From a virus, in the IMG/VR virus record IMGVR_UViG_3300031218_000003, positions 1-41,136 of that record: 41,136 bases of DNA. One strand, given 5' to 3'. Under the pieces are notes generated by a model. The model had not been told where the DNA came from. It made no database searches and saw only the letters and a list, made by a program, of their open reading frames with translations. Below, in pieces: positions 800-31,224 of the stretch (position 1 is its first letter; each line of letters opens with the position of its first letter). A program made the translations under genes and the position numbers.

Positions 800-801
800 A
801 A

Positions 802-2749: not shown

Positions 2750-3417
2750 CTACAGATTTTTAAAGCTATCTGCTTGCACTGATCCTCTAAGAATGATATG
2801 TCTTTGCTGTTATCTACTTCGTGTGTCCAATTTGTTTTTTTAGACAATTCCGTCTCTGATCGGTGATTAACATCTCTAGTGTTATGATATATTTCAGTTA
2901 ATGGTCTTTCGATTCTCATAGTTTGTTGATAGACTACACAACTGCTTGTGACGTAATCTATTAATTGCTCTTCATTGTTGAATCTGAAGTCTGGAATTAA
3001 AAACACTAATCTATCACAATCAGGACTATACTGTTTGGTGTCGCTAATCTGATCGTTAATTTCTTGAGCTAAACATTTGCACCAAATCAATTCATCGAAA
3101 TTGTCTCGACAAGCTTCAGTAGCAAACTTCTGCAATAGTTGACCTAACGTCATTTGCCACATTGTGCAGTACTGTTCTTTTTGTTCTTGAGTGAAGTCTA
3201 CAACTATATCATCGTAGTGTTCAAATGGTAGAATCTTTCTTTTGATTCCTGTCATTTGTTGTGCCCACTCTTTCAGCTTATCTGCAAATCTATAGCAAAA
3301 TATTTTTGTAGATTTTGATTGAGTCGATTGTTTGATTGACTTAGCAATTAAGTCACATGCAGTGTCTTTGCCTGCTCCGAATGTGTTGGCGCTAACCAAC
3401 AGTAATGTTACTTTCAT
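2746..3417 (-). CDS. Deoxynucleoside monophosphate kinase-like P-loop protein
   Basis: Probably phosphorylates dNMPs to dNDPs for phage DNA synthesis, as T4 gene 1 does. The P-loop is NTFGAGKDTACDL (11-23 from the chosen start), and a segment reading LLQKFATEACRDNFDELIW matches the typical LLQ-x-GT-E-GR-D pattern of phage dNMP kinases. An in-frame GTG start would add 29 basic residues from the preceding leader, but the ATG beginning MKVTLLLVS puts the first beta strand directly before the P-loop as in the family, so I chose it (223 residues). The gene follows a structured 119-nt leader and overlaps rnhA. Substrate specificity cannot be read from the sequence. Confidence 0.75.
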   Translation of the reverse strand: MKVTLLLVSANTFGAGKDTACDLIAKSIKQSTQSKSTKIFCYRFADKLKEWAQQMTGIKRKILPFEHYDDIVVDFTQEQKEQYCTMWQMTLGQLLQKFATEACRDNFDELIWCKCLAQEINDQISDTKQYSPDCDRLVFLIPDFRFNNEEQLIDYVTSSCVVYQQTMRIERPLTEIYHNTRDVNHRSETELSKKTNWTHEVDNSKDISFLEDQCKQIALKICR

Positions 3418-3432
3418 GTATTTTGAAAAAGA

Positions 3433-3528
3433 AAGACCGATGTGGTGTGATGTGATGTATCGTCTGTAAACACATCTTCTCTTCAAGGTCAGAATCCTTG
3501 TCACGGAATCAGACTTTAGATCGGTCTT
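3433..3528 (-). other. Possible structured RNA leader bounded by a 9-bp inverted repeat
   Basis: The 119-nt gap between the rIIB-like stop and the dNMP kinase start is one of the longest non-coding stretches here. Its ends are a perfect 9-bp inverted repeat (AAGACCGAT and ATCGGTCTT on the minus strand) 78 nt apart. Inside, two hairpins share bases and so exclude each other: CAAGG-7-CCTTG, and GTCTGATTCC with GGATTCTGAC (8 of 10 pairs). This could be an attenuator, a terminator-like element or a small structured RNA. No known RNA family is recognised, and a tRNA fold does not fit. Confidence 0.35.
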
Positions 3529-3536
3529 AGTTGTTA

Positions 3537-4835
3537 TTATCCTTTAACTTCGTACCCTGCTTCAGTGTATAATTCTCTTGCCTTCTTAACTATACTCTTA
3601 GTTGGAGCAAACTTACTCACTTGCTCGTTGAACTTAGATTTAATCAATTCGATCAATTCTTTTCTGTGCTTCTTGTCCTTACTGTACTTGGTCAAATCAA
3701 CAAACTTTCCTTGATCTTCGACTTGCTTGACTGGATGACAGTTAGATGGTAGAGCTTTTTGATCTTGAATCACATCTTGATCTTTGTAGTCGGTGTCCTT
3801 CAGTTCAAGTATTCTAACAGCTTTGTTTACTATTGAGGATTTGTTCTTTAGACTTCCCTCAACATTAACTCCTGTCTTCTGCAATACATATTCAATGATC
3901 TGTTTTGCAGTCTTTCCTTCAATTTCATTCATGTAAGGATTTTGTTCTACATTAACAGATTGCTTCACCGACTTGACTTTGTCATTGTCTGCTTTGTGAG
4001 AAGATCCTTTATCAGCTTTGATTTGAGTATTTATAGTTTTTTTAGCCTCTTCTGTAGGAGTTTTGAGAAACTCATTTAGATTGACAATCCTTTTGGGATT
4101 TCTTGATTTATCGCTATATCCCATCACTTGATATCTACACACTCTCATCTTTGTATTATTGTAGTCTTTAGGAACAGAAACTATATCTACTGGATTGACT
4201 ATGCAATCGACAATGATGTCGGAAGAATACCACTGTCTCACATATTTTGGAGCACCTACATGAAGTCCATAACTACACGTTTGTGCAGGATCGTCATTGA
4301 CTTTTTCTCTAGGCATTTCAACAATCATTCCTACACTATTGTCTACAGACCTAGAGTGGCAATCAACTAGCTCTCCTGGAAGTCCTTGATACTTTTGCCG
4401 AACTCCTTTCTCAACTACAATATCTCCTAGCACAGTTAGTGCTATATCGTTCGCAAGCATAAATCCATACAATTGTTCTCTAGAATTTTTAGATGGATTT
4501 TTTCTCAGTTTTTTCCAAAACCTAATTAGTGGAAGAAAGTCTTCACCCTCTTTTTCCATTTCAAGTAATTTTTTAGCAATTGCTTGTGGAATAGCTGTTG
4601 AATCGTCCTTCAATACTATCTTTTGATCTTTAACTGTGAAAGTATTTTCGCTGAAATTTTCGATCTTAGCTTTTATGTCTAAGAATTCACTAATCAACTC
4701 CTCTTGTTTTCCATCAATAAGTAATTGAGAGATTTTGAGGAATATTTTTTCATCTTGAGATCTCTGTATGTTGATCTCTTGACCGTCGTACTTCAATACG
4801 ACGGTTTTTTCACTAATCAATCCTTTGATTTTCAT
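3537..4835 (-). CDS. rIIB: rIIB-like protein
   Basis: A homologue of the T4 rIIB family, which acts with rIIA in lysis timing and resistance to exclusion; the biochemical role is unknown. The recognisable core is at residues 85-237: AIAKKLLEM followed by FLPLIRFWKKLRKNPS (100-115), ANDIALTVLGDIVVEKGVRQ (128-147), VEMPREKVNDDPAQTCSYGLHVGA (172-195) and VNPVDIVSVPKDYNNTKMRVCRYQV (213-237). This is the order seen in rIIB-like proteins of large phages. The C-terminal 190 residues are lysine-rich and low in complexity up to about 300, then a helical tail. It lies directly downstream of the rIIA-like gene, as in T4. The leader carries a promoter-like dyad site inside the 3' end of rIIA. Confidence 0.85.
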   Translation of the reverse strand: MKIKGLISEKTVVLKYDGQEINIQRSQDEKIFLKISQLLIDGKQEELISEFLDIKAKIENFSENTFTVKDQKIVLKDDSTAIPQAIAKKLLEMEKEGEDFLPLIRFWKKLRKNPSKNSREQLYGFMLANDIALTVLGDIVVEKGVRQKYQGLPGELVDCHSRSVDNSVGMIVEMPREKVNDDPAQTCSYGLHVGAPKYVRQWYSSDIIVDCIVNPVDIVSVPKDYNNTKMRVCRYQVMGYSDKSRNPKRIVNLNEFLKTPTEEAKKTINTQIKADKGSSHKADNDKVKSVKQSVNVEQNPYMNEIEGKTAKQIIEYVLQKTGVNVEGSLKNKSSIVNKAVRILELKDTDYKDQDVIQDQKALPSNCHPVKQVEDQGKFVDLTKYSKDKKHRKELIELIKSKFNEQVSKFAPTKSIVKKARELYTEAGYEVKG

Positions 4836-4865
4836 TTTACAGTGTTTTAAATTAATTTGTTTTTT

Positions 4866-4899
4866 TAAAGATACTTAAATGTTATCTTCTATCCTACAA
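4866..4899 (-). promoter_or_regulatory. Promoter-like site with GATA-N9-TATC dyad before the rIIB-like gene
   Basis: On the minus strand, GAAGATA is followed by 9 nt and TATCTTTA, the Bacteroidota -7 form TAnnTTTG with a final A. The nearest TTG lies 23 nt upstream rather than the usual 20, so the -33 element is weak while the dyad is intact. The site overlaps the last codons of the rIIA-like gene and would give a roughly 25-nt leader. Confidence 0.5.
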
Positions 4900-7102
4900 G
4901 CTCAATGTAATTTTTTATCACTTTTGAGTGATTCAACTTTTCCGTATGGAGCGTCGTTCTCCAATGATACCCTCTCAAATGTGCATCTACGTAAGATTCA
5001 AGCATTGGATACTTGTCTAACGACGCTTGAATTTTATCTTTCAATCCTTTAAAGTCGAATTTAACCTCTAACGTCTCTAATAGAGGAAATTCCTGTTGTT
5101 CTCCTTCGCTTGATCTTTGAACAAAGTCTTGAACAGTTTTCGGATATAATTTTACAAACTCCTCTCTCATAAGTTCAGGAATTGCAGATACGATTGCATT
5201 TAGCTTCTCGAAAAGCTTCGCTTGATTCAATTGCTTTCTGTATTTCTTAATCAACTGATCTCCTCTTTCTGACACTTCTACAAAATCGGTTATTTTATCT
5301 GCGTATCTGCTCTGTGTAGTTTTGTTGATCAATACCACAGTTCTTTTATCTATTGATTTAATCAATTTGATCTTGTCTCTAATTAATGAAGTATTTAGTC
5401 TGCTAGTATCGCTCAATTGATCTACTACTAAATATGCAAATTTCTCATCTAATGCCTTTTGATTGCTTACGTCCCAAAACTGCATCTTTTCTCTGTGTAG
5501 ATCAATTGATCTACTAGTACTCCACTCATACTTTCTGTGAAGATAGGCTGAGTCGTCTGTCCGAGTTCTTATTGTTACTGTCTCTGAAGGAGTGTATGCA
5601 GATCCGCTAATTGTGTTATTTTCTGCTTTCTCAACGTCACTATACATTTTGACATCAATATCATAATCCACACTCAACTTAATTCCATCATCAAGTAATT
5701 GATCTCTTGTTGCTTTACTGTTAGGAATGATCAATATGAATCCTTTCTGACTCTTCGGTCTATTGTTCCAGATTGTAATGTTTCTTCGAACGTTCTTTCT
5801 AGTGTCCAAGTAATATATTGGAGAGTCTGTTAGTAAACGATTTATGTGGTTGTTTGTTAATGTATCATAATTAACTTTTTCATTTAAAGGCTCTCTAACA
5901 TAGGCTATTGAGTGTGCATTTAGCACTAATCTATTCGTTAACGATCTTCCGTTCCACTTGATTCTGCTTTTAACTTGTTCGCTGTCTATTTCTCCTAGAA
6001 TTGTTGATGAATGCCGATCTCCAATTGCTGATGAAATTACTTTAAGATCGTCTCTACCTTCTTCTATACTGTTTCCTCGCTTTCCAATTATCGAGCTCAA
6101 GGCTTCACATGCAGCTAAATAAGTCTGACTCGACGATATTTGCTCACTCAATAGATCCAACAAGTGATGTTTCGCATCATTGAAAGTAGCCTTTATCTTT
6201 TCACTAGTCTGTTCGTCGTACTGCAAAGCTTCTCTATTGGCCGATATAGTTAGTTCACCGACATTAAACTTTGCAATCACCTTGTATCCGTCATTTATTC
6301 CTTGATCTCGAATCTTTAATGCTCCTCTGTCAATTTTGTAGCAAATCCCATCTATGTTAACGAAATATCCTTCATCACCAAGTCTGCATTCATCATCATC
6401 ATCTTTAACAATACTGAAAGTAGGCTGGTCAATTATCTTATCAATCACGTACTGATTGATATTGAAATTAATCATCTTTGGCTGTACTTCCCACAAACAT
6501 GTACTGTATAGACATTCTCTTTCAAATGTACCTCTATCTTTTTCTTGAATTGGAACAATGATTTGCGTTCCTGTAGATTGATCAGTTTCTTCACAATCGA
6601 ACAGTATCATTTTGCCCTTTCTACTGCTATCGATCATTGCAGTGTATGTGTATTTTTTACGAGAACCCTCGTAGTCACATATAGTAACTACGCTGAAAGT
6701 GTCAGTGTATGCAAATGGTGTCTTAGCTCCAAGGCCAAATCCTCCTGTTTGAGCATTTGAACTTCTCTTAGTTGACGACGCATACTTAACGAACACATTC
6801 ATCATACGATCAGGAGTAATTCCTATACCATAATCTCTAAAAACTACACACATATCGCTGATAAATGCAAGTTTATCTGGGTTAATTATTTCGATCTCAA
6901 TTGGAGTATCGTTCATTCCAGCTTCTCTATTCGCATCTCTTGAATTCGATGCAACTTCTCTACATAATGATCCTATTTTATTCGAATACATTTTGTCTCT
7001 AAGAATGTCAAAAATGATTGAATTGTTGTCGTCAATCGAAAAGCTCATTTCCGATTCTGCTCCAAATACCGAGTCTTTAAATGTGGTTTGATTAAGTTCC
7101 AT
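4889..7102 (-). CDS. rIIA: rIIA-like protein with GHKL ATPase domain
   Basis: Homologue of T4 rIIA, a membrane-associated lysis-timing protein whose N-terminal domain resembles GHKL (Hsp90/MutL/gyrase B) ATPases. Visible motifs are the N box REVASNSRDANREAG (about 48-62, with the ATP-Mg asparagine), the G1 box FRDYGIGITPDRM (about 88-100) and the G2 box KYASSTKRSSNAQTGGFGLGAK in two parts around 105-127, then PFAYTDTFSVVT. A transducer-like middle domain includes SANREALQYD (about 287-296). At 737 residues it is close to T4 rIIA (725). It is followed by rIIB with a dyad promoter between them. It could also have a role against host exclusion systems; that is inference. Confidence 0.88.
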   Translation of the reverse strand: MELNQTTFKDSVFGAESEMSFSIDDNNSIIFDILRDKMYSNKIGSLCREVASNSRDANREAGMNDTPIEIEIINPDKLAFISDMCVVFRDYGIGITPDRMMNVFVKYASSTKRSSNAQTGGFGLGAKTPFAYTDTFSVVTICDYEGSRKKYTYTAMIDSSRKGKMILFDCEETDQSTGTQIIVPIQEKDRGTFERECLYSTCLWEVQPKMINFNINQYVIDKIIDQPTFSIVKDDDDECRLGDEGYFVNIDGICYKIDRGALKIRDQGINDGYKVIAKFNVGELTISANREALQYDEQTSEKIKATFNDAKHHLLDLLSEQISSSQTYLAACEALSSIIGKRGNSIEEGRDDLKVISSAIGDRHSSTILGEIDSEQVKSRIKWNGRSLTNRLVLNAHSIAYVREPLNEKVNYDTLTNNHINRLLTDSPIYYLDTRKNVRRNITIWNNRPKSQKGFILIIPNSKATRDQLLDDGIKLSVDYDIDVKMYSDVEKAENNTISGSAYTPSETVTIRTRTDDSAYLHRKYEWSTSRSIDLHREKMQFWDVSNQKALDEKFAYLVVDQLSDTSRLNTSLIRDKIKLIKSIDKRTVVLINKTTQSRYADKITDFVEVSERGDQLIKKYRKQLNQAKLFEKLNAIVSAIPELMREEFVKLYPKTVQDFVQRSSEGEQQEFPLLETLEVKFDFKGLKDKIQASLDKYPMLESYVDAHLRGYHWRTTLHTEKLNHSKVIKNYIELVG

Positions 7103-7113
7103 AATACCTATCT

Positions 7114-7305
7114 TTATTTTGTTAACGTTTGAATTATTTGATCTCTTACATCACATATGATTGTAAAGTTTTCTGATATATTTTTATCAAGTTTGATGTT
7201 GATCACTTTTCCTTGTCTGAAAGTTTTGTGATCATTTACTTTAGAAAATTGTTTTTTGAATTCTTTAGCTTGATCTACTGATTGTAATAATACTGACTTG
7301 TACAT
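7114..7305 (-). CDS. Small hypothetical protein (63 aa)
   Basis: Not recognised. It is a short, lysine-rich protein with no membrane segment and a predicted helix in its first third (SVDQAKEFKKQFSKV). It begins with ATG right after the dyad promoter at 7331-7361 and ends 11 nt before rIIA, so it is the first gene of the rIIA-rIIB transcript. The position and clean spacing argue that it is real. Confidence 0.6.
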   Translation of the reverse strand: MYKSVLLQSVDQAKEFKKQFSKVNDHKTFRQGKVINIKLDKNISENFTIICDVRDQIIQTLTK

Positions 7306-7330
7306 GATATTGATGTTTTAGATTATATCA

Positions 7331-7361
7331 TAAAGATACCTAACCGTTATCTTTATAGCAA
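7331..7361 (-). promoter_or_regulatory. Bacteroidota-type promoter with GATA-N9-TATC dyad, driving the rIIA-rIIB unit
   Basis: On the minus strand TTG is followed by exactly 20 nt and TATCTTTA, matching the Bacteroidota -33/-7 consensus. Within the spacer AAAGATA sits 9 nt upstream of TATCTTT, making a perfect 7-bp dyad. It lies in the 69-nt gap between the macro-domain gene and the 63-aa gene, about 25 nt upstream of the ATG. Confidence 0.75.
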
Positions 7362-7374
7362 CCTTTTGGACCTA

Positions 7375-7833
7375 TTATTTTTTGAAATAAACGAACACAA
7401 TTTTTTCGCCAGCAAACTCTCTCAGTATAATTCTTTTAATCTTATTCCAATTGCCTCCAGCAATACCTGCTCCAATTTGCGGAAACCCAATAGTCCAGTC
7501 CTTTCCTTTTATCATTTTTGACATTTTTCTCAATGATAACGTCAATGCGTCGTAGTCTAAGTGCTTTCCTCCTTGATATTGCGTGTAAAGATTGTATATC
7601 ACACCATCATCTGTTGCTGCTAATGTCAATGATCCAAGTTTAAGTAAATCTCCTGAGGTCGTTAAGTTATCAGCGTCCATAGCCTCTCTATACCTAATTG
7701 AAATTTGAGCAGCCAATCCTGCTCCCATTCTATTGAAGCAATTGCATCCGTGTGCAATTGCATCAAATTCTCCTTGACTAAACATATCAATTAAGTTTCC
7801 GTTCTTTTCTATGTACTCGTGTTTCTTTGCCAT
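7375..7833 (-). CDS. Macro-domain protein (ADP-ribose binding/hydrolase)
   Basis: Macro domains bind ADP-ribose and many hydrolyse ADP-ribosyl esters or ADP-ribose-1''-phosphate. The whole 152-residue protein is one domain: GNLIDM (12-17), AIAHGCNCFNRMGAGLA (25-41, containing the ribose-contacting Asn and the glycine loop), LGSL, YNLYTQ and the second phosphate loop IGFPQIGAGIAGGNW (about 117-131). The shape is closest to the Poa1p/TARG1/DarG type. In a phage it could reverse ADP-ribosylation of DNA or proteins placed by host defences such as DarT, or recycle NAD-derived compounds; this is inference. It is 1 nt from the next gene upstream, so it is part of the same operon. Confidence 0.88.
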   Translation of the reverse strand: MAKKHEYIEKNGNLIDMFSQGEFDAIAHGCNCFNRMGAGLAAQISIRYREAMDADNLTTSGDLLKLGSLTLAATDDGVIYNLYTQYQGGKHLDYDALTLSLRKMSKMIKGKDWTIGFPQIGAGIAGGNWNKIKRIILREFAGEKIVFVYFKK

Positions 7834-7834
7834 A

Positions 7835-8263
7835 CTACTTCTTTGGTTTGACTGTTAGTAGTTTATATATTACTGCTGTAGGTTCTCCCATCATCGATTG
7901 CTCAATCTCCCAATCTGCTAGCTGTGCAATCGTTTTATGGCTACTAGTCAGTTTTTCAACAAATTCACGATTCATTCTGTCAACAACCGATGCTACTGAA
8001 TGAACTTGTTGAACGTTATCTTTCCACTCCCTCACAGCTTCTGCAGGACTACATCGGTTTGCTAACTCTACTAAAGGTCCAAATCCAAGAGATTCCGATT
8101 GCAAGATTCCTGCATCTTGAGCATTTAGATGCACTCTAACTGCGTACTGATTGATGTGTAGACCTTTGGTTGTTGTGCTTGTTAGAGACTCTTCTGTGAT
8201 TCCTAATTTGACTGATGAGAATTTGTACATCCACTTATACAGTCTGTTTAACAGTTTTTTCAT
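7835..8263 (-). CDS. Hypothetical protein (142 aa)
   Basis: Not recognised. It is a mixed alpha/beta protein with a basic first 15 residues (MKKLLNRLYKWMYKF), which could be amphipathic. A central LGFGPLVELANRCSPAEAVREWKDNV looks helical. No catalytic motif is visible. Its ATG overlaps the stop of the DUF2786 gene by one base (TAATG), so translation is probably coupled. Confidence 0.65.
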   Translation of the reverse strand: MKKLLNRLYKWMYKFSSVKLGITEESLTSTTTKGLHINQYAVRVHLNAQDAGILQSESLGFGPLVELANRCSPAEAVREWKDNVQQVHSVASVVDRMNREFVEKLTSSHKTIAQLADWEIEQSMMGEPTAVIYKLLTVKPKK

Positions 8264-9066
8264 TACGATAATTGTTTTGCAGTAGTTTCTCTTGACGATA
8301 TTGCTTTAGATAGATTGCTATTTCTTCCAGCAATCAGTCCCTTAGTATATGCACCGTGATCATCTTTTATTTTGCCTACAACTCTACCCTTTTTCAAGTT
8401 ACTATACTGCTGTTTTTTAAAGTTTTCAATCGCTACACTAGTGTTGGTGCACATTACTGCATACTTATCTCCACTGATATCTTTCTCGACCGATTTCTTC
8501 TCCAACTTCAATTTAGCGCTTAGTCCAAACACGCATCCTTTGAGATATGATCGTATCCAAGGCATACGATATCCTAAATGCTTTTGTTTCAAACAATCTC
8601 TCTCACTCAATCCTTCAGGTGTAAATTGCTCAAGTACTTGTTTTCTGTGTTTATTGTACTCTTGCTTACTTAATGATCTAAACATTTGTCGTGCAACGTC
8701 AAACAAATAAGTTACGATCTCCACATTATGCTTTTTGCCTATAATTGACAGCGATCCTTTACTGGAGTATATTGTCACATGCTTAATGCTGTGACATAGA
8801 TTGTAATAGCAAAGGACGTTGAGTAAATTAGCTTCCCATTGACCTTCTTCTCTGATGGATCCAAACGCAAGTTTAGATTTATCTGTTTCTACAATATCAG
8901 ATTGAATACTACTCACTTCAACGTCCGTCAAAGTCAGATTGTGTTGCAGTAGTAATTGATTTGCTTTTCTAAGTGCTGATTGTGCTTCTTGCTGAGTTGT
9001 GCTTAGATCGTTTCCTAATGCAAGTAGCTTTTTAATTTTGTCTAGTAACTTTTGTTCTTTACTCAT
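8263..9066 (-). CDS. DUF2786 domain protein
   Basis: The N-terminal 50 residues, LLDKIKKLLALGNDLSTTQQ then EAQSALRKANQLLLQHNL, match the DUF2786 pattern (K-I-x-K-LLALA then EA-x-A-x-KA-x-LL-x-x-H). The remaining 200 residues, with a tryptophan in GQWEANLLNVLCYYNLC and a long basic C-terminal half, resemble the domain that often follows DUF2786 in phage and bacterial proteins. The function is unknown. The gene lies in a chain of translationally coupled genes, starting at the stop of the 29-aa zinc-ribbon gene. Confidence 0.75.
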   Translation of the reverse strand: MSKEQKLLDKIKKLLALGNDLSTTQQEAQSALRKANQLLLQHNLTLTDVEVSSIQSDIVETDKSKLAFGSIREEGQWEANLLNVLCYYNLCHSIKHVTIYSSKGSLSIIGKKHNVEIVTYLFDVARQMFRSLSKQEYNKHRKQVLEQFTPEGLSERDCLKQKHLGYRMPWIRSYLKGCVFGLSAKLKLEKKSVEKDISGDKYAVMCTNTSVAIENFKKQQYSNLKKGRVVGKIKDDHGAYTKGLIAGRNSNLSKAISSRETTAKQLS

Positions 9067-9155
9067 TATACAGTCTTTTTACAAATTGAACATTTTCCTT
9101 GAGGTGTTACAATTACCATTGTACAACACCTTTTACAATACTTAAATTTTGCCAT
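9066..9155 (-). CDS. 29-aa zinc-ribbon miniprotein
   Basis: This short gene fills the gap between two longer genes exactly: its ATG overlaps the stop of the 195-aa gene and its stop overlaps the ATG of the DUF2786 gene, both as TAATG. The product has two cysteine knuckles, YCKRCC and CSICKK, about 14 residues apart, the classic spacing of a rubredoxin-like or zinc-ribbon fold. Such miniproteins often bind nucleic acid or a protein partner, but no function can be given. The double stop-start overlap and the cysteine pairs make chance unlikely. Confidence 0.7.
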   Translation of the reverse strand: MAKFKYCKRCCTMVIVTPQGKCSICKKTV

Positions 9156-9742
9156 TATTTCTTTTGTCTTGTAGTGGTTATGAATCTATAGTGTGGAGCC
9201 TTAATATCTCCTTCAACCCATATAGCACGTGCATGACACTCTGTAGTTTGATTAGATATTAGAAACTCTAGTTGAGATGCTGACGAAGCTACTAGCTCCA
9301 CTCTTAAATCTCTCGAAGTAAATCCAGCATCAACTAGCTTATCGATCATTGTATCAAACTTAACTTGATATGAATCGAAAGCCTCGTTAAACCATTCTCT
9401 ACAATTTATTGCAGATCTATCAAGTCTCTTAGCAATTGTCGAAGCAATTCTCTCAACTCTCTCAGCATCATGCTGATCAAACGTTTGATCAGCATTGTAT
9501 CTGTTTGGAGCGTAACCTAGTAAATTTCTTACTTGTACATTGTCGTGAATGTTGATTCCAATAAAGTCCTCCTTTCGAAAATCTTTAATCAAATCAAGTC
9601 TTCTTTGAATTTTCTTCTCATTCCAGTCAGCATACGACTGTAGGTACTTGTTTTGAAAGTCTAATAAGATTCTTCCTACATTTGACGAAAGTGCTGATTT
9701 AGCGTCTTTTCTTCTTTTTTGTTCTGCTTTTGAAATTGTCAT
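9155..9742 (-). CDS. Hypothetical protein (195 aa)
   Basis: Not recognised. It is a largely helical, highly charged protein with a basic start (KAEQKRRKDAKSALSSNVG) and an acidic/basic middle (HDAERVERIASTIAKRLDRS). It is the first gene after the dyad promoter at 9768-9798 and is coupled to the zinc-ribbon miniprotein gene. No catalytic motif or membrane segment is seen. Confidence 0.7.
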   Translation of the reverse strand: MTISKAEQKRRKDAKSALSSNVGRILLDFQNKYLQSYADWNEKKIQRRLDLIKDFRKEDFIGINIHDNVQVRNLLGYAPNRYNADQTFDQHDAERVERIASTIAKRLDRSAINCREWFNEAFDSYQVKFDTMIDKLVDAGFTSRDLRVELVASSASQLEFLISNQTTECHARAIWVEGDIKAPHYRFITTTRQKK

Positions 9743-9767
9743 TACCTATCTGTTTGTGATTACATGA

Positions 9768-9798
9768 TAAAGATACTCTAAACATATCTTTTAAGCAA
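9768..9798 (-). promoter_or_regulatory. Bacteroidota-type promoter with GATA-N9-TATC dyad
   Basis: TTG, 20 nt, TATCTTTA on the minus strand, with AAAGATA 9 nt upstream of TATCTTT. It sits in the 80-nt gap upstream of the 195-aa gene. The surrounding 39 bp (9769-9807) is repeated perfectly at 10038-10076, so this is one of a pair of twin promoters. Confidence 0.75.
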
Positions 9799-9822
9799 CT
9801 TTTTTTAAAGTCTATTTTTTTT

Positions 9823-10014
9823 TCATCTTACAAGGCTATCACTACCTACATAGCTAGGTCTACTGTGCATTTCTATATCGCTCATTTTTTGATTAAAAAC
9901 TATATAATCATTTTTAGAAAAGTTTTTCATTACAAATAAGTGATATTTGTTTTTAGTAGCGTTTGTTTTGTTTGCACATTTCTTAGCTAGTTGGTTTATT
10001 GTAAGATTTTTCAT
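9823..10014 (-). CDS. Small hypothetical protein (63 aa)
   Basis: Not recognised. It is a basic protein with an asparagine- and lysine-rich N-terminal half (INQLAKKCANKTNATKNKYH). It has its own promoter immediately upstream (10037-10067) and is followed by an identical promoter copy. The isolated single-gene unit suggests an early, host-directed or regulatory peptide, but this is inference. Confidence 0.55.
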   Translation of the reverse strand: MKNLTINQLAKKCANKTNATKNKYHLFVMKNFSKNDYIVFNQKMSDIEMHSRPSYVGSDSLVR

Positions 10015-10036
10015 GGCTTTATATTTTAATTATACT

Positions 10037-10067
10037 CAAAGATACTCTAAACATATCTTTTAAGCAA
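10037..10067 (-). promoter_or_regulatory. Bacteroidota-type promoter, exact TAnnTTTG -7 box, with dyad
   Basis: TTG, 20 nt, TATCTTTG on the minus strand. This is the only site here with the exact consensus TAnnTTTG. AAAGATA lies 9 nt upstream of TATCTTT. It drives the 63-aa gene with a leader of about 15-20 nt. Confidence 0.78.
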
Positions 10068-10076
10068 CTTTTTTTA

Positions 10077-10217
10077 TTAATTTAAACAAATTGGAAGTTC
10101 TACTGGATCGTTATAATAGTAGTTCTCTAACCTTTCCTTCATCATAGTGTTTCTAACAAACCTTATTGTCTGGTCATCAAGAATCATAAATATCCATTTG
10201 TAGTGAGTGTTATTCAT
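10077..10217 (-). CDS. Small hypothetical protein (46 aa, start uncertain)
   Basis: Not recognised. From the first ATG the product is 46 residues beginning MNNTHYKWIFMILDD. A GTG at 10316 would give 79 residues, but it overlaps the preceding DNA-binding-protein gene by 40 nt and adds a cysteine/asparagine-rich stretch that looks random. The stop lies directly at the twin-promoter repeat. It may be a real short protein or only the 3' trailer of the upstream gene. Confidence 0.35.
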   Translation of the reverse strand: MNNTHYKWIFMILDDQTIRFVRNTMMKERLENYYYNDPVELPICLN

Positions 10218-10276
10218 AACGTGTATAAGAGAGCTATAAGGGTTATTATTACAGGGAGGATAGTACTGTCTATTAT

Positions 10277-11140
10277 TTAGACACCAACAGATATCTTGTT
10301 TGGCAACCTCCTCCACAGAGCGCCATCCTTCAATATGTAACGATCAGCATATTCTTTACAGTATGTAGCGTAATCGATTGAGGTGGCTCCTAATCTCATC
10401 ATTCTATTCTTAACTTCAACTAATTGATTAGACTTCATTCGTTGAACAATTCTGTGTGCACTCGAGGTACTGGACAATCCTAAAACCTTACATATTCCTT
10501 TTAGAGATAGTGTTACGTCAGCATTACAATACACATTGGCCTTATTATGTTTACAATGTAATTCATCCATTTGGATTACCGTCATTGCTTCTTCATTTAG
10601 ATCTACCATACGTACAGTGTTTTTCGCTACAGATTCAAGGACTTGTTGCTTGAATTGTTTATTTGCGCAGTGCAGGTTGTTTTCGGTGTACTGGTAGCGT
10701 TTATCTTTGTGAAGATTATAATACGCTTTGTGAATTTGCTGATTGAGATTGTCTCTAACATCTATCAGTGCAATCCAGCTTTTAATGTCATTGATCTGAC
10801 TAACTGGTATTTTGTGAATTTTGAATTGACCTTTTCTGTGATCTGTTTTAGTTAAATCGTACCCAAGAACGCTGAACAACTTGTCGTAACTCACCAGTCT
10901 GTAACCTTGCTTGTGTTTGGCTAAAAGGTTACAGTTGGTCAGTTTACGAATTTTATTCCAAATCGTAGCTGATGCATACTTGGTGTGTTGTTGTATAGTT
11001 GACACAACGGTTCCGTGTCTGAAAAATCCATTTTGATCGATCGTCTTTAACGTATAGTAAAATTCTACGTCGTTAAGTAAGTTGCGACTAATCGACCTAC
11101 TGTAACATTGATGTGGTATTTTCAGACACTGTACTTTCAT
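10277..11140 (-). CDS. Probable DNA-binding protein with two winged-helix-like domains
   Basis: No family name is recognised. Residues about 30-95 read as a winged helix: YTLKTIDQNGFF, then HGTVVSTIQQHTKYASATIW (recognition-helix region), NKIRKLTNCNLLAKHKQGYR. A second HTH-like unit is DVTLSLKGICKVLGLSSTSS followed by AHRIVQRMKSNQLVEVKNRM (about 205-245). Two HTH units suggest a phage replication initiator or a transcription regulator. It lies immediately upstream of two copies of the dyad promoter, which makes it a candidate for binding that dyad; this is inference. The start overlaps the stop of the 87-aa gene (ATGA). Confidence 0.6.
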   Translation of the reverse strand: MKVQCLKIPHQCYSRSISRNLLNDVEFYYTLKTIDQNGFFRHGTVVSTIQQHTKYASATIWNKIRKLTNCNLLAKHKQGYRLVSYDKLFSVLGYDLTKTDHRKGQFKIHKIPVSQINDIKSWIALIDVRDNLNQQIHKAYYNLHKDKRYQYTENNLHCANKQFKQQVLESVAKNTVRMVDLNEEAMTVIQMDELHCKHNKANVYCNADVTLSLKGICKVLGLSSTSSAHRIVQRMKSNQLVEVKNRMMRLGATSIDYATYCKEYADRYILKDGALWRRLPNKISVGV

Positions 11141-11400
11141 TGAGTAATCAGTTGAGACTTGATGTAATCAAATCCTTGATGAAGCATTAACCTCTTCAAG
11201 TCTGTACTGTTGTAAGGTGGCATAATTTCTGGACGAACTCCCTCAGCGTATCCTTCCAAATATATCAAAGCATCTCTTAGTAGCTTTGAACTAATTGAGT
11301 TGGCATACTCAGGTGATGCATCAAACATTTTTCTTATACAGTACTTTCTCAAACTACTTCTAGTAACTGTCAATAACTTGCTTGCTTCTACTTTATCCAT
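11137..11400 (-). CDS. Hypothetical protein (87 aa)
   Basis: Not recognised. It starts MDKVEASKLLTVTRSSLRKY, which could be an HTH (E-A-x-x-LL-x-V-x-R-x-x-L-x-x-Y). A GTG further upstream would add 14 residues and overlap the previous gene by 50 nt, so the ATG with an 8-nt overlap is preferred. Its stop overlaps the start of the two-winged-helix protein gene, suggesting they act together. Confidence 0.6.
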   Translation of the reverse strand: MDKVEASKLLTVTRSSLRKYCIRKMFDASPEYANSISSKLLRDALIYLEGYAEGVRPEIMPPYNSTDLKRLMLHQGFDYIKSQLITQ

Positions 11401-11707
11401 TGAATAGGTATTTAACGTATTTGGTTGTTGGACTGAATACACGTCTACGATCTGTCATCACCTCAATCTTACTGACAATCTCTCTTTGACGTAAATTGTC
11501 TAGCCCTATTGTACTGGTTTGATTTTCAATAATGTTGGTAATGTTTTTTCCCGTCATACTTATTTCAGACATCGTGTCGTCTACTGGAATAAATTCTGAA
11601 AACGCATAGTACGTATTGTCTATGTGAACGATATTGAATCCTAAGTTGTTGAGAAGTTCAATAACTCCCAGGGATGTCTTTTGCGCTTCGTCAATTTGAT
11701 GCTTCAT
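11393..11707 (-). CDS. Hypothetical protein (104 aa)
   Basis: Not recognised. It is a mixed alpha/beta protein, with a helix followed by LGFNIVHIDNTYYAFSEFIP and a basic C-terminus (TDRRRVFSPTTKYVKYLFNG). It overlaps the preceding gene by 4 nt (ATGA) and the next by 8 nt. It is part of a run of five small genes downstream of ruvC. Confidence 0.6.
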   Translation of the reverse strand: MKHQIDEAQKTSLGVIELLNNLGFNIVHIDNTYYAFSEFIPVDDTMSEISMTGKNITNIIENQTSTIGLDNLRQREIVSKIEVMTDRRRVFSPTTKYVKYLFNG

Positions 11708-12036
11708 TCTGTTCGATTTTTTACTGAGTTGATTTCGTGCTTTAATCTTTTTGCCTTTCTGTCTTTTTCTTCGTCAGAGTTTGCATGATCCTTCGCTCTC
11801 TTTTTGAAATGTTTTTGATTCCTAGACATTCGTTGATTTGTGCTTGGAAGAAACATTGGAGCTTCAATAGGACCTTTTCTTTTAATTGGAACAAGGACCT
11901 CTCCACTGTCTGGATTGGTCAGTACTTTACCGTACGGATCCTTGTAGACCCATCCTAATTGTGTTTGAAACGATCTGTGACGTGGAATGTGAAATTCTTT
12001 GCCTGTCTTTTCGCACTTGAAATTATTAGTTGCCAT
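11704..12036 (-). CDS. Basic hypothetical protein (110 aa)
   Basis: Not recognised. The N-terminal half is beta-like (FKCEKTGKEFHIPRHRS, GWVYKDPYGKVLTNPDSGEV) and the C-terminal third is strongly basic and helical (RNQKHFKKRAKDHANSDEEK). It looks like a nucleic-acid- or ribosome-associated small protein, but no family is seen. The first 82 nt overlap the end of the preceding small ORF in another frame. Confidence 0.6.
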   Translation of the reverse strand: MATNNFKCEKTGKEFHIPRHRSFQTQLGWVYKDPYGKVLTNPDSGEVLVPIKRKGPIEAPMFLPSTNQRMSRNQKHFKKRAKDHANSDEEKDRKAKRLKHEINSVKNRTE

Positions 12037-12173
12037 ATGAGTTTTGCTTGATTGTATTTGTATTGAAAGTATAATGTTGCAGATCCTCCACCAACAATTA
12101 GAATATCGATTAGATCAGGATGTGTGTGAGCATCGGAACATAGTCTTAATGCATGTAATGTGGCCTCTATCAT
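11955..12173 (-). CDS. Possible small protein with a hydrophobic segment (72 aa)
   Basis: The ATG follows the RuvC stop codon directly and fills the 137-nt gap before the next gene, then overlaps that gene by 82 nt. The first 45 residues include LIDILIVGGGSATLYFQY, a hydrophobic stretch that could span a membrane or form a glycine-rich loop. The long overlap is unusual for this window, where overlaps are mostly under 30 nt, so either the C-terminal part is not real or the start of the next gene lies further in. Confidence 0.4.
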   Translation of the reverse strand: MIEATLHALRLCSDAHTHPDLIDILIVGGGSATLYFQYKYNQAKLIWQLIISSAKRQAKNFTFHVTDRFKHN

Positions 12174-12740
12174 TTAGTAAAAATTTCTTCTACAATATTC
12201 TGCCATTAAGTAGGCGTCCACGAATCCATCATCAATTTTAGTTGTTGGAGATCCTTTTTTTCCGATCACTCTCCATTCTTGCTGAGGCTGTAACATTTTT
12301 GCAGCTAGAAGTGAGGTTGCTTTAGTATCGACTTTTTTAACAAAAGTACCTTGCTTGGTTTTTCGCTTTGTCGCCATGTATTGAGTCTTAGCTCCTTGCC
12401 ACATCAATTTCTGCCATTCTTTTGGAGTGACCATCGTATGTGATATTTCTAACGCCATCAACGCCATTTCCCACAATCCCTTACCTCGACCAAAGTCGAA
12501 ATTTGAAGCTTTGCCTCCCATTTGTGTAGCGTGTACGTTCTCTAACAATACGTGTGCTCTAATTCTGTCAATATTGTATGGGGAGAACTTAAACAAGTTT
12601 GTACTCATTTGCTGTTTGTCGTACTCCTTACCAATTACTGGAGTAACATAATGATCTACAATCTTTCCACTATTGTCTAGTTCAACGACGTGCCCTGTCT
12701 TTCCTGGATCAATTCCTATAAATCTTTTATTCGATTCCAT
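12174..12740 (-). CDS. RuvC-like Holliday junction resolvase
   Basis: Cuts four-way DNA junctions made by recombination before packaging. It shows the RNase H-fold layout of RuvC: FIGIDPGKTG (Asp11), VLLENVHATQ (Glu67) and KIDDGFVDAYLMAEY (Asp171 and Asp175), with the helix TPKEWQKLM and the basic KRKTKQGTF loop between them. 188 residues is close to bacterial RuvC (173). It lies in a block with RecA and the SbcCD-like nuclease, which would create its substrates. It overlaps the upstream 93-aa gene by 14 nt. Confidence 0.88.
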   Translation of the reverse strand: MESNKRFIGIDPGKTGHVVELDNSGKIVDHYVTPVIGKEYDKQQMSTNLFKFSPYNIDRIRAHVLLENVHATQMGGKASNFDFGRGKGLWEMALMALEISHTMVTPKEWQKLMWQGAKTQYMATKRKTKQGTFVKKVDTKATSLLAAKMLQPQQEWRVIGKKGSPTTKIDDGFVDAYLMAEYCRRNFY

Positions 12741-16956: not shown

Positions 16957-17033
16957 TGGTCTCACGACAGGATTCGAACCTATGACTTGCTCCTTATAAA
17001 AAAGAGCCACTCTACCAACTGAGCTACGTGAGA
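16957..17033 (-). tRNA. tRNA with an enlarged anticodon loop; isotype uncertain (Ile-UAU or Lys-UUU)
   Basis: The minus strand folds as a cloverleaf: acceptor stem TCTCACG/CGTGAGA, D arm GCTC-AGTTGGTA-GAGT, variable AAGTC, T arm ATAGG-TTCGAAT-CCTGT, and CCA following the acceptor. An extra G:C pair extends the acceptor. The anticodon stem GCTCT/GGAGC closes a 9-nt loop, TTTTTATAA, instead of 7 nt. Depending on how two extra T in the six-T run are placed, the anticodon is UAU (Ile), UUU (Lys) or UUA. It lies in a co-transcribed gap between the SSB and SbcD-like genes, so it must be processed from the messenger. Confidence 0.85.
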
Positions 17034-18443: not shown

Positions 18444-18995
18444 TTACTTAATTAACTTCTCTCTAGCCTTGATTAGAATTCCATTATACTTTCCTTCAAC
18501 TAATGATTTTTCAAAATCTTCTGGAGCAAATCCCATATTGTCGCTAATACGATTCAGCTTCATTTCTTTTGACTTCACTGCCCAGTATAGTGCATCCATA
18601 TATTCGGCCTCTTTTTTTAGTCTTAGCAGTTTTTTGTGCCTCAACTGAACTCCTTCGTCCATCAAAACCTCTTCTTCAATTTCAGGATTGCTTTTCGGCT
18701 TCTTACTATCCTTTCCAGCGCTACTAATTACTGTTTTAAACGTTCTTCTTAATCTATGAGCAGTTTGAGCCTTATAGATTTCAAATCCCATTTTTTGAGA
18801 AGAATGTGCATTTTCTGCTTCCGCCTTCCATATTCCTACACGATTCATCAACGCAGGGATTGTTACAATCTCTGCGTATAGATTCGTCCAATCGATTGTA
18901 GTTAATTGATCGATGTCTATATCGTCCTCAAACTCTTCGAAATGAAGATTGATTATTTTGTCCTTAAACGATATCTGTAGTGTTTCTGATGCCAT
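18444..18995 (-). CDS. Hypothetical protein; candidate UvsY-like recombination mediator
   Basis: No family is certain. It has 183 residues: a beta start (LQISFKDKIINLHFEEFEDD), a helix around IPALMNRVGIWKAEAENAHS, and a C-terminal helix AEYMDALYWAVKSKEMKLNR with ISDN after it. T4 UvsY has a similar layout: a central helix with conserved Trp/Lys, then a helix in which aromatic residues precede D-A-x-K-S-R and an I-x-D-M end. It lies directly upstream of the SSB gene in the transcript, near RecA and SbcCD, where a mediator that loads RecA onto SSB-coated DNA would fit. Without a profile search this remains inference. Confidence 0.5.
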   Translation of the reverse strand: MASETLQISFKDKIINLHFEEFEDDIDIDQLTTIDWTNLYAEIVTIPALMNRVGIWKAEAENAHSSQKMGFEIYKAQTAHRLRRTFKTVISSAGKDSKKPKSNPEIEEEVLMDEGVQLRHKKLLRLKKEAEYMDALYWAVKSKEMKLNRISDNMGFAPEDFEKSLVEGKYNGILIKAREKLIK

Positions 18996-19930
18996 TACGA
19001 AGTAGCTCTTTTCATTAAGGTTATACAGAAGCTACGGTGAATGTCTTCTCCATGTAACTCTTTTAATTTTTTCATTACAGTTCCAGAAGTGTATTTTTCA
19101 CCTTTTTTCTCTAAGTCCTTGACGATTTGAATTACTCGACTACTTTTAGACCCTTTTTTTGGCGTAGTGATTGAAGGTCTGTCTTGTTTTTGCTCAGGCT
19201 TGTCTTGTTTAGACAACTCTATTTTAGCAGACTCTAAATCATCAAATCCATAAGTAGACTTGAACTCAGAGTTTGATAATTTAGTGATTTCTGGCAAATC
19301 CTCTAAAAATCCATCCTCCTCTTCAGTGAGATAACCAAATCGTTGCATGGTCTCTTTGTAAATTTTAGAGTAAGCGTTGGTGGCTGCTTTAACGTTTTTT
19401 AGCGTTTTGTGCTCCTTTTCTTTTTCAACAGGCTCTTCAGATTCAGAAGCCTCTTCAGATTCAGAAGTCTTTTCTGGCATATTCTCATCGACCTCAGGTT
19501 CTTCAAGTGTAGGTACGTCTGAAATATCATCGTCTAAGATTTTCGGAGCTACGTAATTCTTGTCTGTGAATTCAGAATACTTCATTTGCTTATATTCTGA
19601 ATTAAAATCTTCAAGCATTTCATACGCCTTCTCTCCATCACCATCAATTAATACAATGCATTCGTCGAACTCATCAGTTTCGGGCTGAAACTTTGCTTTG
19701 AATTCTTTTCCGTCTTTCTTATAAATCAAATCTGGACGAACATTCTTGTTTGCTGATACTTCAGCCAACGCCCTTTCTCTGTTCTCAATGATTGAATCAA
19801 TAAGCTCTTGCTTTTCTAACTTTGAAATTCCTTTGGTTATTCCAAAGGCTCTCTGAAGAATAGTTCTTAGTCTGGACTCCTCTTTTTTCTCTAAGAATTC
19901 TTGTGTGTACTTTACTAATAAATCTGACAT
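18995..19930 (-). CDS. Acidic hypothetical protein (311 aa)
   Basis: Not recognised. Three regions can be seen: a helical N-terminus (about 1-60), a small beta domain (about 65-120), and an acidic linker with SESEEASESEEPVEKEKE (about 150-168). The C-terminal segment (about 255-311) could be a winged helix: SRVIQIVKDLEKKGEKYTSG, TVMKKLKELHGEDIHRSF. A TTG 9 nt upstream is open, but the ATG is preferred. It is the first gene after the dyad promoter at 19972-20002 and is coupled by TAATG to the possible UvsY-like gene, so it probably belongs to the recombination/replication unit. Confidence 0.65.
   Translation of the reverse strand: MSDLLVKYTQEFLEKKEESRLRTILQRAFGITKGISKLEKQELIDSIIENRERALAEVSANKNVRPDLIYKKDGKEFKAKFQPETDEFDECIVLIDGDGEKAYEMLEDFNSEYKQMKYSEFTDKNYVAPKILDDDISDVPTLEEPEVDENMPEKTSESEEASESEEPVEKEKEHKTLKNVKAATNAYSKIYKETMQRFGYLTEEEDGFLEDLPEITKLSNSEFKSTYGFDDLESAKIELSKQDKPEQKQDRPSITTPKKGSKSSRVIQIVKDLEKKGEKYTSGTVMKKLKELHGEDIHRSFCITLMKRATS
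19432..19467. repeat. 18-bp in-frame tandem repeat in the acidic linker
   Basis: Two 18-bp units with one difference code for the repeated serine/glutamate hexapeptide SESEEA/P in the acidic protein. This is typical slippage in a flexible linker. Confidence 0.8.
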
Positions 19931-19971
19931 AATTTCCAATGTTTAGTTTTTACAATTTGTTTTCTAGACCA

Positions 19972-20002
19972 TAAAGATACCTAACCATTATCTCTAGAGC
20001 AA
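19972..20002 (-). promoter_or_regulatory. Bacteroidota-type promoter with dyad, driving the recombination unit
   Basis: TTG, 20 nt, TATCTTTA on the minus strand, with AGAGATA 9 nt upstream of TATCTTT. The 9-nt centre (ATGGTTAGG) is nearly the same as that of the rIIA promoter (ACGGTTAGG). It lies in the 79-nt gap between the polymerase stop and the acidic-protein gene. Confidence 0.75.
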
Positions 20003-23558: not shown

Positions 23559-24177
23559 GTGTAATTATTTCACGATTAGTTAGTAGATCCATTAGTTCGG
23601 TAGTTGTTAAGTACCTAGCTTCTAGCCTGCTATATTTATTTCTTAGAGTTTTGAATGTCCACTTTTTATCCTCTAAATAGCTTTGAGGAATCAAGCTATT
23701 TCTATCTTCAAGGTTTTTAATTCTTGGAAAAACTACTGCTCCACTAAGTTCGTTAGGCATTCCCTCTATCGACCTTATCTGTTCAAAAGAAAATACTACA
23801 TTCACTTGATCGATAAACACAATTCCGTGCTGTTTAAATTCATAATGCAAGTCTGCATGAATGTCCACTATAACTTCTGCTACTTTTTTTAGTAAGCGTT
23901 TGTCAGTTTCTCTTTGAAGAGGAATCATTCTCGGACCAACTCTTTTGTAGAGCTCTTCTTTGTTTAATTCCTTAGATATGTTTTTGTTAATTAGCTGCTC
24001 AATTGGTATTTCGCTATAAATAGAACATAGCTCCAACAACATTTCTATGTCGTCGTCTACAATTAAATCTTCAGCATTGTTTATTTTAAGAAAAGCCATC
24101 AATTCAGCGCGAACTTCTTTGATTGTATTAGGCCTTCTTCCAACTAAAGCCTCCACTGCATTAATTACTACCTTCAT
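23542..24177 (-). CDS. Hypothetical protein (211 aa) coupled to the polymerase
   Basis: Not recognised. It is mostly helical, with an acidic middle (LIVDDDIEMLLELCSIYSEI) and a basic C-terminus (WTFKTLRNKYSRLEARYL). It overlaps the DNA polymerase gene by 17 nt and the HTH gene by 17 nt, so all three are translated together. It might be a polymerase accessory or loading factor; that is inference from position alone. Confidence 0.65.
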   Translation of the reverse strand: MKVVINAVEALVGRRPNTIKEVRAELMAFLKINNAEDLIVDDDIEMLLELCSIYSEIPIEQLINKNISKELNKEELYKRVGPRMIPLQRETDKRLLKKVAEVIVDIHADLHYEFKQHGIVFIDQVNVVFSFEQIRSIEGMPNELSGAVVFPRIKNLEDRNSLIPQSYLEDKKWTFKTLRNKYSRLEARYLTTTELMDLLTNREIITHGNYR

Positions 24178-24664
24178 TCTTTATTTGTTTGACTAGCCTC
24201 GCTACATAGCTAGCATTTGTACATAACTCTTCAGCAATTTTACTTGAAGAAGTTGTTCCCTGATCTAAGAGCTGTCTGACTTGATCTTTTCGCGTCAATT
24301 TAGATCCACTAGCTTTGGGTTGAGCCTTTGAGGTTTTGGCCTTAGTGGATTTCTTAGGAATTGGAGTTTTGTTGTCTACAATATACGATCTCAGTGCATC
24401 GTAATACTGTTTCGCAGTTAAAGGTGCTTGCTTATTCATTTCAGATGAATACTTATCACTGAACTGAGACTTAGACTTGTGTACTGCATCGTAAATCACC
24501 TGTTTGGTAACTGACATCGATTTTACGATCTCAGTGTCTTCTCCAATTAAAATTGTGTGTGCTCCTTTAGATCCTTCTTCCCCTACGTCGAAGAATCCAA
24601 TAACGTTTCCTTCGTCAGTTATCATGTAGCTGTTTTGTGAAATTGATTTACTTATTGTTTCCAT
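24161..24664 (-). CDS. Protein with C-terminal helix-turn-helix (167 aa)
   Basis: Residues 1-90 form an unrecognised domain. A lysine/alanine/proline-rich linker (KKSTKAKTSKAQPKASGSK) follows. The C-terminal 42 residues, RKDQVRQLLDQGTTSSSKIA then EELCTNASYVARLVKQIKNE, read as a helix-turn-helix of the MarR/sigma-region-4 kind. A linker plus HTH suggests a DNA-binding regulator or replication factor. It starts just after the dyad promoter at 24681-24710 and heads the polymerase unit. It is a second candidate for binding the dyad. Confidence 0.65.
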   Translation of the reverse strand: METISKSISQNSYMITDEGNVIGFFDVGEEGSKGAHTILIGEDTEIVKSMSVTKQVIYDAVHKSKSQFSDKYSSEMNKQAPLTAKQYYDALRSYIVDNKTPIPKKSTKAKTSKAQPKASGSKLTRKDQVRQLLDQGTTSSSKIAEELCTNASYVARLVKQIKNEGSN

Positions 24665-24680: not shown

Positions 24681-24710
24681 TAAAGATACTAAAAAGTTAT
24701 CTTTAATCAT
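24681..24710 (-). promoter_or_regulatory. Promoter-like dyad site before the polymerase unit
   Basis: AAAGATA, 9 nt, TATCTTTA on the minus strand, so the dyad is perfect. The -33 region has no TTG at 20 nt (ATG at 19 nt is the nearest), so the dyad may matter more than the -33 element. It lies in the 48-nt gap before the HTH gene. Confidence 0.55.
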
Positions 24711-27017: not shown

Positions 27018-27048
27018 TAAAGATACCTCTTTATTATCTTACAGACAT
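27018..27048 (-). promoter_or_regulatory. Promoter-like dyad site before the ligase gene
   Basis: TAAGATA, 9 nt, TATCTTTA on the minus strand, with ATG in place of TTG at the 20-nt -33 position. The upstream part overlaps the end of the preceding kinase-fusion gene. The leader to the ligase ATG is about 20 nt. Confidence 0.55.
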
Positions 27049-30840: not shown

Positions 30841-31168
30841 TTTGTAAATACTTTTTGAGTTTTTCAAATTCCTCTAGAATTTGAGTTTGTGAATCAATTC
30901 CTCCGCAATTACTTCCCTTGACTGTAGTTCCAAACTCCTGATTGCCAGGAAACTTCTCTCCTGGAGGAACTATTATTCCGCTAGGAGTTGTAATTGGCTT
31001 TTTTCGAATTGGGATAATAAAGGTCTCGTGTGCAATTAACTTTTCTTCGTCGTCGTTAGTATGCATGCTGTAAATAATAACTGATCTTCCAGAAACTGGA
31101 CAGTCATATCTTTGAGTCTGTTTGTAGACGTATCCATTCTTTGATACTCTTTTACTTAGCTTTTTCAT
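30812..31168 (-). CDS. Hypothetical protein (118 aa) between queD and queE
   Basis: Not recognised. It is beta-rich and basic: YVYKQTQRYDCPVSGRSVII, AHETFIIPIRKKPITTPSGI. The middle has PPGEKFPGNQEFGTTVKGSN and a cysteine in NCGG, and the C-terminus is a lysine-rich helix. Its position between queD and queE, with its own dyad promoter upstream, suggests a part in the 7-deazaguanine pathway, but it is not QueC, which is larger and has a P-loop. It could be a second accessory factor. Confidence 0.6.
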   Translation of the reverse strand: MKKLSKRVSKNGYVYKQTQRYDCPVSGRSVIIYSMHTNDDEEKLIAHETFIIPIRKKPITTPSGIIVPPGEKFPGNQEFGTTVKGSNCGGIDSQTQILEEFEKLKKYLQNGKSKFKTS

Positions 31169-31192: not shown

Positions 31193-31224
31193 TAAAGATA
31201 ACTACACATCATCTATTCAGCAAA
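31193..31224 (-). promoter_or_regulatory. Promoter inside the end of queD, driving queE and folE
   Basis: TTTG, 20 nt, TATCTTTA on the minus strand. The -33 TTTG lies within the last codons of queD. The upstream half-site is degraded (ATAGATG for AAAGATA), so this site may escape the regulator of the other sites. It would drive the 118-aa gene, queE, the HNH gene and folE. Confidence 0.65.

Follow-up and report, generated by a model that had tools for sequence, protein, structure and literature searches.

A 41-kb piece of a tailed phage, taken from a virus record and referred to here in its whole length of 41,136 nucleotides as the window, encodes a 287-residue protein, P0001, on its minus strand (10277..11140). 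The initial annotation proposed that P0001 has two winged helices and regulates nearby promoters that contain a short inverted repeat. The locus therefore raises two questions: which protein reads these dyads, and what does P0001 do for the phage?

The P0001 locus and its relatives

The long open reading frames of the window are nearly all on the minus strand. A genome of 95,137 bases (G001) represents the same phage, with 99.99% identity over window positions 12572–41136 and 100% over 1–9071. Both ends of G001 flank the P0001 segment, such that window positions 9072–12571 (3.5 kb) are the sole copy of it among the genomes compared; this segment is the exact gap between the G001 ends, and is perhaps a variable region or an assembly break point. 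By family searches, rIIA, rIIB, QueD and an SbcC-like protein were assigned, as were a RuvC-like Holliday junction resolvase (12174..12740, minus strand; phrog_1770, 3.2e-23) and a DUF2786 gene; the terminase was assigned by tblastn against annotated phages, and the RecA-, SbcD-, SSB-, polymerase-, primase- and helicase-like genes by eye. The host is probably a member of the Bacteroidota, judging from the promoter type described below and the kinship with Bacteroides phage DAC19.

Relatives were collected by way of the RuvC-like neighbor, and among the best 80 of 122 RuvC relatives there are four loci (L132, L138, L136 and L139) with a nearby P0001 homolog. Phages G003 and G004 were reached through this neighbor and thus independently of the promoter motif, G009 was reached through the motif, and the P0001 homolog of G002 was recovered with a two-row profile. 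From 121 query proteins, DAC19 shares 32, the fragment G002 31, and G005 37; G006, G008, G020 and G022 share one or two and have few promoter sites, and are weak negative controls.

P0001 is a real gene, as homologs with 40–41% identity are found at the same place in two other phages, and three further phages have distant homologs. The start codon, ATG, overlaps the stop codon of the preceding reading frame (11137–11442) as ATGA. The homologs in L132 (40%) and L138 (41%) are related over nearly the full length; more distant are those of G002 (26%) and of L136 in G005 (28% over part), and the huge phage LR745206 (635 kb) has a homolog 52% identical to that of G002. Searches with P0001 or its close family revealed no close relatives in viral_contigs, plasmids or genome_contigs and one weak match among phages (LR745206, E 5e-3), and no homolog was found in DAC19. 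Gene order is shared by the window, L132 and L138, with SbcC followed by a small reading frame, RuvC, three small reading frames and P0001; a 104-residue protein encoded between RuvC and P0001 (11393..11707, minus strand) is kept in the relatives. The DUF2786 gene follows P0001 directly in L138, one reading frame later in L132, and two or three small reading frames later in the window.

Predicted structure of P0001

The two helix-turn-helix segments noted initially are seen as sub-cut-off matches at residues 46–83 (DeoR-type, E 0.22) and 211–243 (MarR_2, E 0.04), and a structural model built from five sequences agrees with them. AlphaFold gave no usable model from the single sequence without an alignment (pLDDT 32). 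The five-sequence model has a mean pLDDT of 61 and a pTM of 0.39, values at which it does not fix the placement of the heads relative to each other. A winged helix is predicted at residues 10–91 (10868..11113, minus strand; ten-residue blocks with pLDDT 75–89), and a second is predicted less confidently at residues 213–285 (10286..10504, minus strand), as a helix-turn-helix with strands (blocks with pLDDT 58–77) that contains an SSTSSAH-type helix kept across three close homologs. Helices at 119–148 and 161–197 are modeled with low confidence between them. Structure prediction, proposed at the outset as a check, thus favors a winged-helix fold for both heads, with less certainty for the second.

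P0001 had also been described as unlike known families, and this holds: there is no Pfam or NCBIfam model at cut-off, and the best PHROG match has an E-value of 0.0019 over 33 residues. The MarR_2 model scores P0001 at 14.5 bits compared to a cut-off of 27, and no RepA_N or DnaD Pfam match is seen at E ≤ 1. Among the five members of the P0001 family the best Pfam match is to a DeoR-type regulator helix-turn-helix (two of five, best E 1.5e-4), which is better than the weak DnaD_N match of one member (E 0.023). A search of PDB structures with the P0001 model found nothing at E ≤ 0.001. Predicted viral proteins in BFVD include three full-length matches at E ≤ 0.001 with uninformative names, and weaker viral structure matches include some named as replication initiators (E 0.05–0.25) and one named MotA (E 0.16).

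The closest structural neighbors of the first domain are the N-terminal domains of DnaD (2vn2_C, Z 7.6 over 98 residues with an rmsd of 4.2; 2v79_A, Z 7.5), followed by the plasmid initiators 4pql_B (Z 6.4), 4pta (6.1) and 5kbj_H (5.9), which we take to be RepA_N proteins. All of these Z-scores are below 8, with DnaD-N tied with SarX (Z 7.3) and MarR regulators, and a family absent from the VIA-align list is not thereby excluded. RepA_N initiators are outlined in PMC5703833 as starting with a winged helix of about 110 residues, which a linker joins to a C-terminal domain, and the modeled plan of P0001 resembles that of DnaD-N and the RepA_N proteins (pSK41/pSK1 Rep). However, these have a five-helix DnaD-like C-terminal domain where a second winged helix is modeled in P0001, whose model shows no evident C-terminal domain of the DnaD type; nor are there clear Rep boxes near P0001 as for RepA_N initiators. 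The winged-helix fold is shared with the MarR and SarX regulators, although that match is sub-cut-off and P0001 carries two unlike heads in a single chain, joined by long linker helices. P0001 is therefore a predicted protein of two winged helices and long helices that fits no curated family among those searched.

A promoter class with an inverted repeat

The dyad AAAGATA-N9-TATCTTT (23 bp) is a real motif: it occurs seven times in the window with no more than one mismatch (four of these exact), compared to 0.03 expected, and none of 100 shuffles reaches seven. The arm centers are 16 bp apart, as claimed initially. Two copies are close to P0001, at 10038 and 9769, and have an identical 39-bp stretch in common; they had been described as lying directly downstream of the gene, and their proximity is borne out, in the sense that they follow its 3′ end at distances of 216 and 485 bases. 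Both are part of composite promoters on the minus strand, GTTG-N5-AAGATA-N9-TATCTTTG at 10037..10068 (core 10038–10060) and GTTG-N5-AAGATA-N9-TATCTTTA at 9768..9799 (core 9769–9791), the latter upstream of a 195-residue reading frame. The others, also on the minus strand, are at 7332..7354 (exact, with GTTGC at −33), 4867..4889 (one mismatch, no −33 TTG, upstream of the rIIB-like gene), 19973..19995 (one mismatch, with GTTGC), 24682..24704 (exact, no −33 TTG, upstream of a gene for a 167-residue helix-turn-helix protein) and 27019..27041 (one mismatch, no −33 TTG), and there is a weak site with two mismatches at 31194..31216 (TTTG at the −33 place), which is the same as the G001 site at 76509. 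There is no dyad with one mismatch or fewer between 10060 and 19973, and P0001 thus seems to be read from the dyad at 19973, the likely promoter of an operon in which P0001 is the last gene.

On the coding strand the dyads take the form GTTG-N5-AAGATA-N9-TATCTTT[A/G], which is also TTG-N20-TAnnTTT[A/G]; they are Bacteroidota-like promoters whose −7 box also serves as the right arm of an inverted repeat, and about a dozen promoters of the phage carry this motif. The −7 box of Bacteroidota sigma-A promoters is given in PMC9723704 as TAnnTTTG at −12 to −5; if the phage box has the same position, the left arm of the dyad would be at −28 to −22 and its center near −17. The phage form TTG-N20-TATCTTT[A/G] is close to this type, but the phage sites differ from TAnnTTTG in ending mostly in A (39 of 46, with G in the other 7), in having mostly TC at the variable positions, and in having AAGATA at a fixed place in the spacer.

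Several patterns emerge from the promoters of the related phages. First, noncoding TTG-TAnnTTT[A/G] sites are concentrated at a single spacing, with 46 at N20, 10 at N19 and 4 at N21; the 46 were picked by TTG-N20-TAnnTTT[A/G] alone on the coding strand outside genes of G001, the window gap, G003, G004 and G009. Secondly, AGATA is located at spacer offset 6 in 34 of these 46, with four occurrences over all other offsets combined. Thirdly, the −7 box contains TC in 40 of 45 sites with an arm of at most one mismatch and in 10 of 86 with three or more (the two Fisher tests leave out 17 of the 148 sites, which have two arm mismatches). Finally, when each spacer was compared with the complement of its own −7 box, using permuted spacer columns as a control, four phages have the same best center, located 5 bases ahead of the box, with p-values for the shared center of 0.001 in G001 plus the window (14 sites), 0.019 in G003 (9), 0.001 in G004 (11) and 0.006 in G009 (9). 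Near-identical sites had been removed beforehand (from 10 to 9 in G003, 17 to 11 in G004, 10 to 9 in G009 and 21 to 18 in G005), and this test used both strands whereas the spacer scan used the main coding strand, hence the different site numbers for G001 and G009. At N20 the same comparison gives p 0.78 for DAC19, 0.27 for G020 and 0.78 for G022; at N19 the values are 0.038 for DAC19 (with only 0.50 of positions complementary), 0.066 for G020, 0.11 for G004, and 0.013 for G003 at another center (41). The sites of G002, G006 and G008 are too few for this test.

These conserved sites bear out the view of the dyads as genuine promoter elements. G003 and G004 have 12 and 16 composite sites, respectively, on the coding strand outside genes with at most two mismatches; G009 has five exact sites by a slightly looser pattern, although having been found by the motif it is not independent evidence for the dyad. 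The strict motif matches 22 stretches in viral_contigs, 14 of them in G001, G003, G004 and G009 and one each in eight other records, and a looser scan matches at least 118. The eight single-match records have at most two matches each at one mismatch and are taken as chance or unrelated; a P0001 search there was matchless but uninformative, and if their sites were real they would count against P0001 as the reader. Between 34,222 and 76,509 of G001, a region that probably holds the virion genes, sites that combine TC with two or fewer arm mismatches are absent. Among the matches listed in searches of the open-access literature for Bacteroidetes or Flavobacterium phage promoters, TAnnTTTG and TATCTTT, no title describes this element.

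More distant phages differ. In G005 the motif AAAGATA-N9-TATCTTT is not above control, and the own-box comparison points to a different dyad center (p 0.004, 18 sites), a soft value because this dyad is pure A/T and several sites are near-copies. In G002 one site has a single mismatch among 11 with up to three. G002 has a dyad of its own, GACATAAA-N5-TTTATGTC, centered on the −33 element of two promoters (L009 8993–9023 and 13314–13344), one of which sits just behind its P0001 homolog. Two further arrangements were seen in the dyad phages. In L132 (12751–12793, near 31571 of G003) the dyad is within a palindrome with 17-nt arms that are 94% complementary and GTTGC on both sides, which could be a bidirectional promoter. 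G009 encodes a distant homolog (23%; 34755–35382, minus strand) of the 195-residue reading frame of the window (9155–9799) behind its own dyad promoter and on the strand opposite to the surrounding matched genes, perhaps as a portable promoter-plus-gene unit.

The reader of the dyads and the role of P0001

A protein bound to the dyad would cover the bases contacted by sigma, as the −7 box itself forms the right arm, and repression by occlusion is the simplest reading, with activation by distortion also possible. We considered several readers. A phage sigma factor was set aside, as Sigma70_r2 was not found in G001, G003, G004 or G009, the control being positive in 11 of 14 genomes. The left arm might have no dedicated reader, with the host polymerase itself touching AAGATA in the spacer and the dyad appearance being a by-product. 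The arm does sit in a promoter that the host enzyme should recognize anyway, and LR745206 has a TATCTTT box without an arm, so that TC does not always go together with the arm. Nonetheless, we consider this improbable: the association of TC with the arm, the peak of own-box complementarity at one center in four phages, and the presence of three G001 dyad sites without a TTG at −33 all argue against it.

That P0001 is the reader was the initial proposal, which the comparison does not support: homologs also occur in phages without this dyad. As such a reader P0001, as a dimer or through both heads of one chain, would bind AAAGATA and TATCTTT and block or remodel polymerase at the −7 box, with negative feedback as P0001 is itself in a dyad-driven operon. 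In its favor, the dyad is present in all three phages with a close P0001 (window/G001, G003 and G004), a close P0001 is conversely encoded by each dyad phage for which that region is covered (3 of 3, leaving the eight single-match records aside), the helix of the second helix-turn-helix is nearly invariant in the three close homologs, and the phages with distant P0001 homologs have other promoter dyads, that of G002 on the −33 element and AAATATA-N5-TATATTT in G005; moreover DAC19, in which P0001 was not found, has no clear dyad in spite of the 32 shared proteins. However, the G002 dyad, looked for in LR745206 as possible support given the related P0001 homologs, is absent there at up to two mismatches across all 635 kb, and no arm is evident by eye at 14 TTG-N20 promoter sites in 200 of the 635 kb. 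By eye the sequences of the two heads are also unlike, which makes it less obvious that a single chain could read a pair of identical half-sites. The apparent lack of P0001 in the dyad phage G009 was discarded as a counterargument, since its contig breaks off within the SSB-like gene and the whole segment is absent. On balance we regard P0001 as a possible but rather unlikely reader.

The dyad distribution is matched better by the 167-residue protein (24161..24664, minus strand), which could act as a homodimer with one C-terminal helix-turn-helix head on each AAAGATA and, its gene being behind a dyad, would regulate itself. It is encoded by all four dyad phages (window/G001, G003, G004 and G009) with a dyad or degenerate dyad just upstream in each (by eye in G009), its helix-turn-helix segment is conserved and has weak matches to HTH_7 (E 0.0042) and MarR (E 0.0098), and a profile of four sequences has no match at E ≤ 10 in G002, G005, G006, G008, G020 and G022, in 169 of the 179 kb of DAC19 or in the 200 kb covered of LR745206 (635 kb). 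But G009 was itself found by the motif, and 31 of the 121 query proteins are present in both G003 and G004 and missing from G002, a fragment, and G005; a profile common to so many genes is weak evidence that ranks candidates without deciding. A 314-residue protein (18995..19939, minus strand) with a conserved C-terminal helix-turn-helix-like segment, seen by eye, has the same distribution in G002–G005 and G009 and is a further candidate. The 167-residue protein fits the dyads somewhat better than P0001 and is a possible, if doubtful, reader, which would be compatible with P0001 acting in replication.

For P0001 we tentatively prefer a role in the initiation of replication, as an origin-binding or helicase-loading protein, rather than as the dyad reader, and consider replication at least as likely as promoter control. 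It is favored by the position of P0001 as the last gene of an operon for replication and recombination, its retention alongside other promoters, and its weak likeness to DnaD and RepA_N, while the DeoR-type regulator match, the best Pfam match of the family, weighs against it; since homologs are kept in G002, G005 and LR745206, whose promoters differ, its job seems independent of the AAGATA dyad. A replication initiator with a nearby origin had been offered initially as an alternative, and the operon context and the DnaD-N and RepA_N neighbors (Z < 8) speak for it, whereas a clear iteron array near the gene does not appear: no clear iteron or Rep-box arrays were found in window 9100–12600, L132 11400–13700 or L138 11200–12300, the same scan giving scattered pairs and a three-copy 23-nt family (74–87%) behind the L132 gene that overlaps promoters. 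Both functions could reside in P0001 as a two-headed switch that starts replication and turns off early promoters through operators in the −7 box, the dyads drifting with the recognition helix between lineages (AAGATA/TATCTT, GACATAAA/TTTATGTC and AAATATA/TATATTT), but we think this very improbable.

Taking the preferred replication role, we infer that P0001 would be a sequence-specific DNA-binding protein of the phage replication and recombination operon, whose N-terminal winged helix may contact DNA while the long helices oligomerize or bridge. The C-terminal winged helix, with a recognition helix among the best conserved parts, might read a second site or the same one, and the protein would act when replication begins, in the manner of DnaD or RepA_N initiators. 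The dyads are a separate element on this view, Bacteroidota-like promoters with the −7 box doubling as an operator arm, on which a phage-encoded dimer would presumably cover the box and shut the promoter off. With P0001 apparently read from the promoter at 19973, whichever protein binds the dyads would also control P0001.

One known arrangement for comparison is that of T4 MotA, likewise a two-domain phage DNA-binding protein that serves a promoter class with an extra element (DNA binding by P0001 being predicted), and the MotA activation domain 1bja_A is a weak Foldseek match to P0001 (prob 0.94, E 0.21), although no relation in sequence was seen. In T4 middle promoters the MotA box takes the place of the −35 element, whereas the dyad element is in the spacer with the −7 box as its second arm. 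In the open-access literature searched we found nothing on gene timing in such large phages that seemingly use the host Bacteroidota-type polymerase. These phages offer a defined promoter class with about a dozen sites per genome, a built-in operator and two or three named candidate readers, such that the question of the reader is testable with a few purified proteins.

Other features of the phage were noted in passing. A tRNA gene in the window (16958–17033, minus strand; Rfam tRNA, 55 bits) has the ARAGORN anticodon UUA, which would read the UAA stop codon, and its anticodon stem and loop are unusual by eye. A tmRNA (L005 6105–6457, G001 26105–26457; RF00023, 71 bits; ARAGORN tag AEYKLAA) is followed by a tRNA-Gln, and the same phage encodes a protein with a histone deacetylase domain (L005 1273–2244, G001 21273–22247; PF00850, 1e-20). 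The QueD-like gene lies beside genes assigned by eye as GTP cyclohydrolase and QueE (window 29055–31695), possibly a set for 7-deazaguanine DNA modification.
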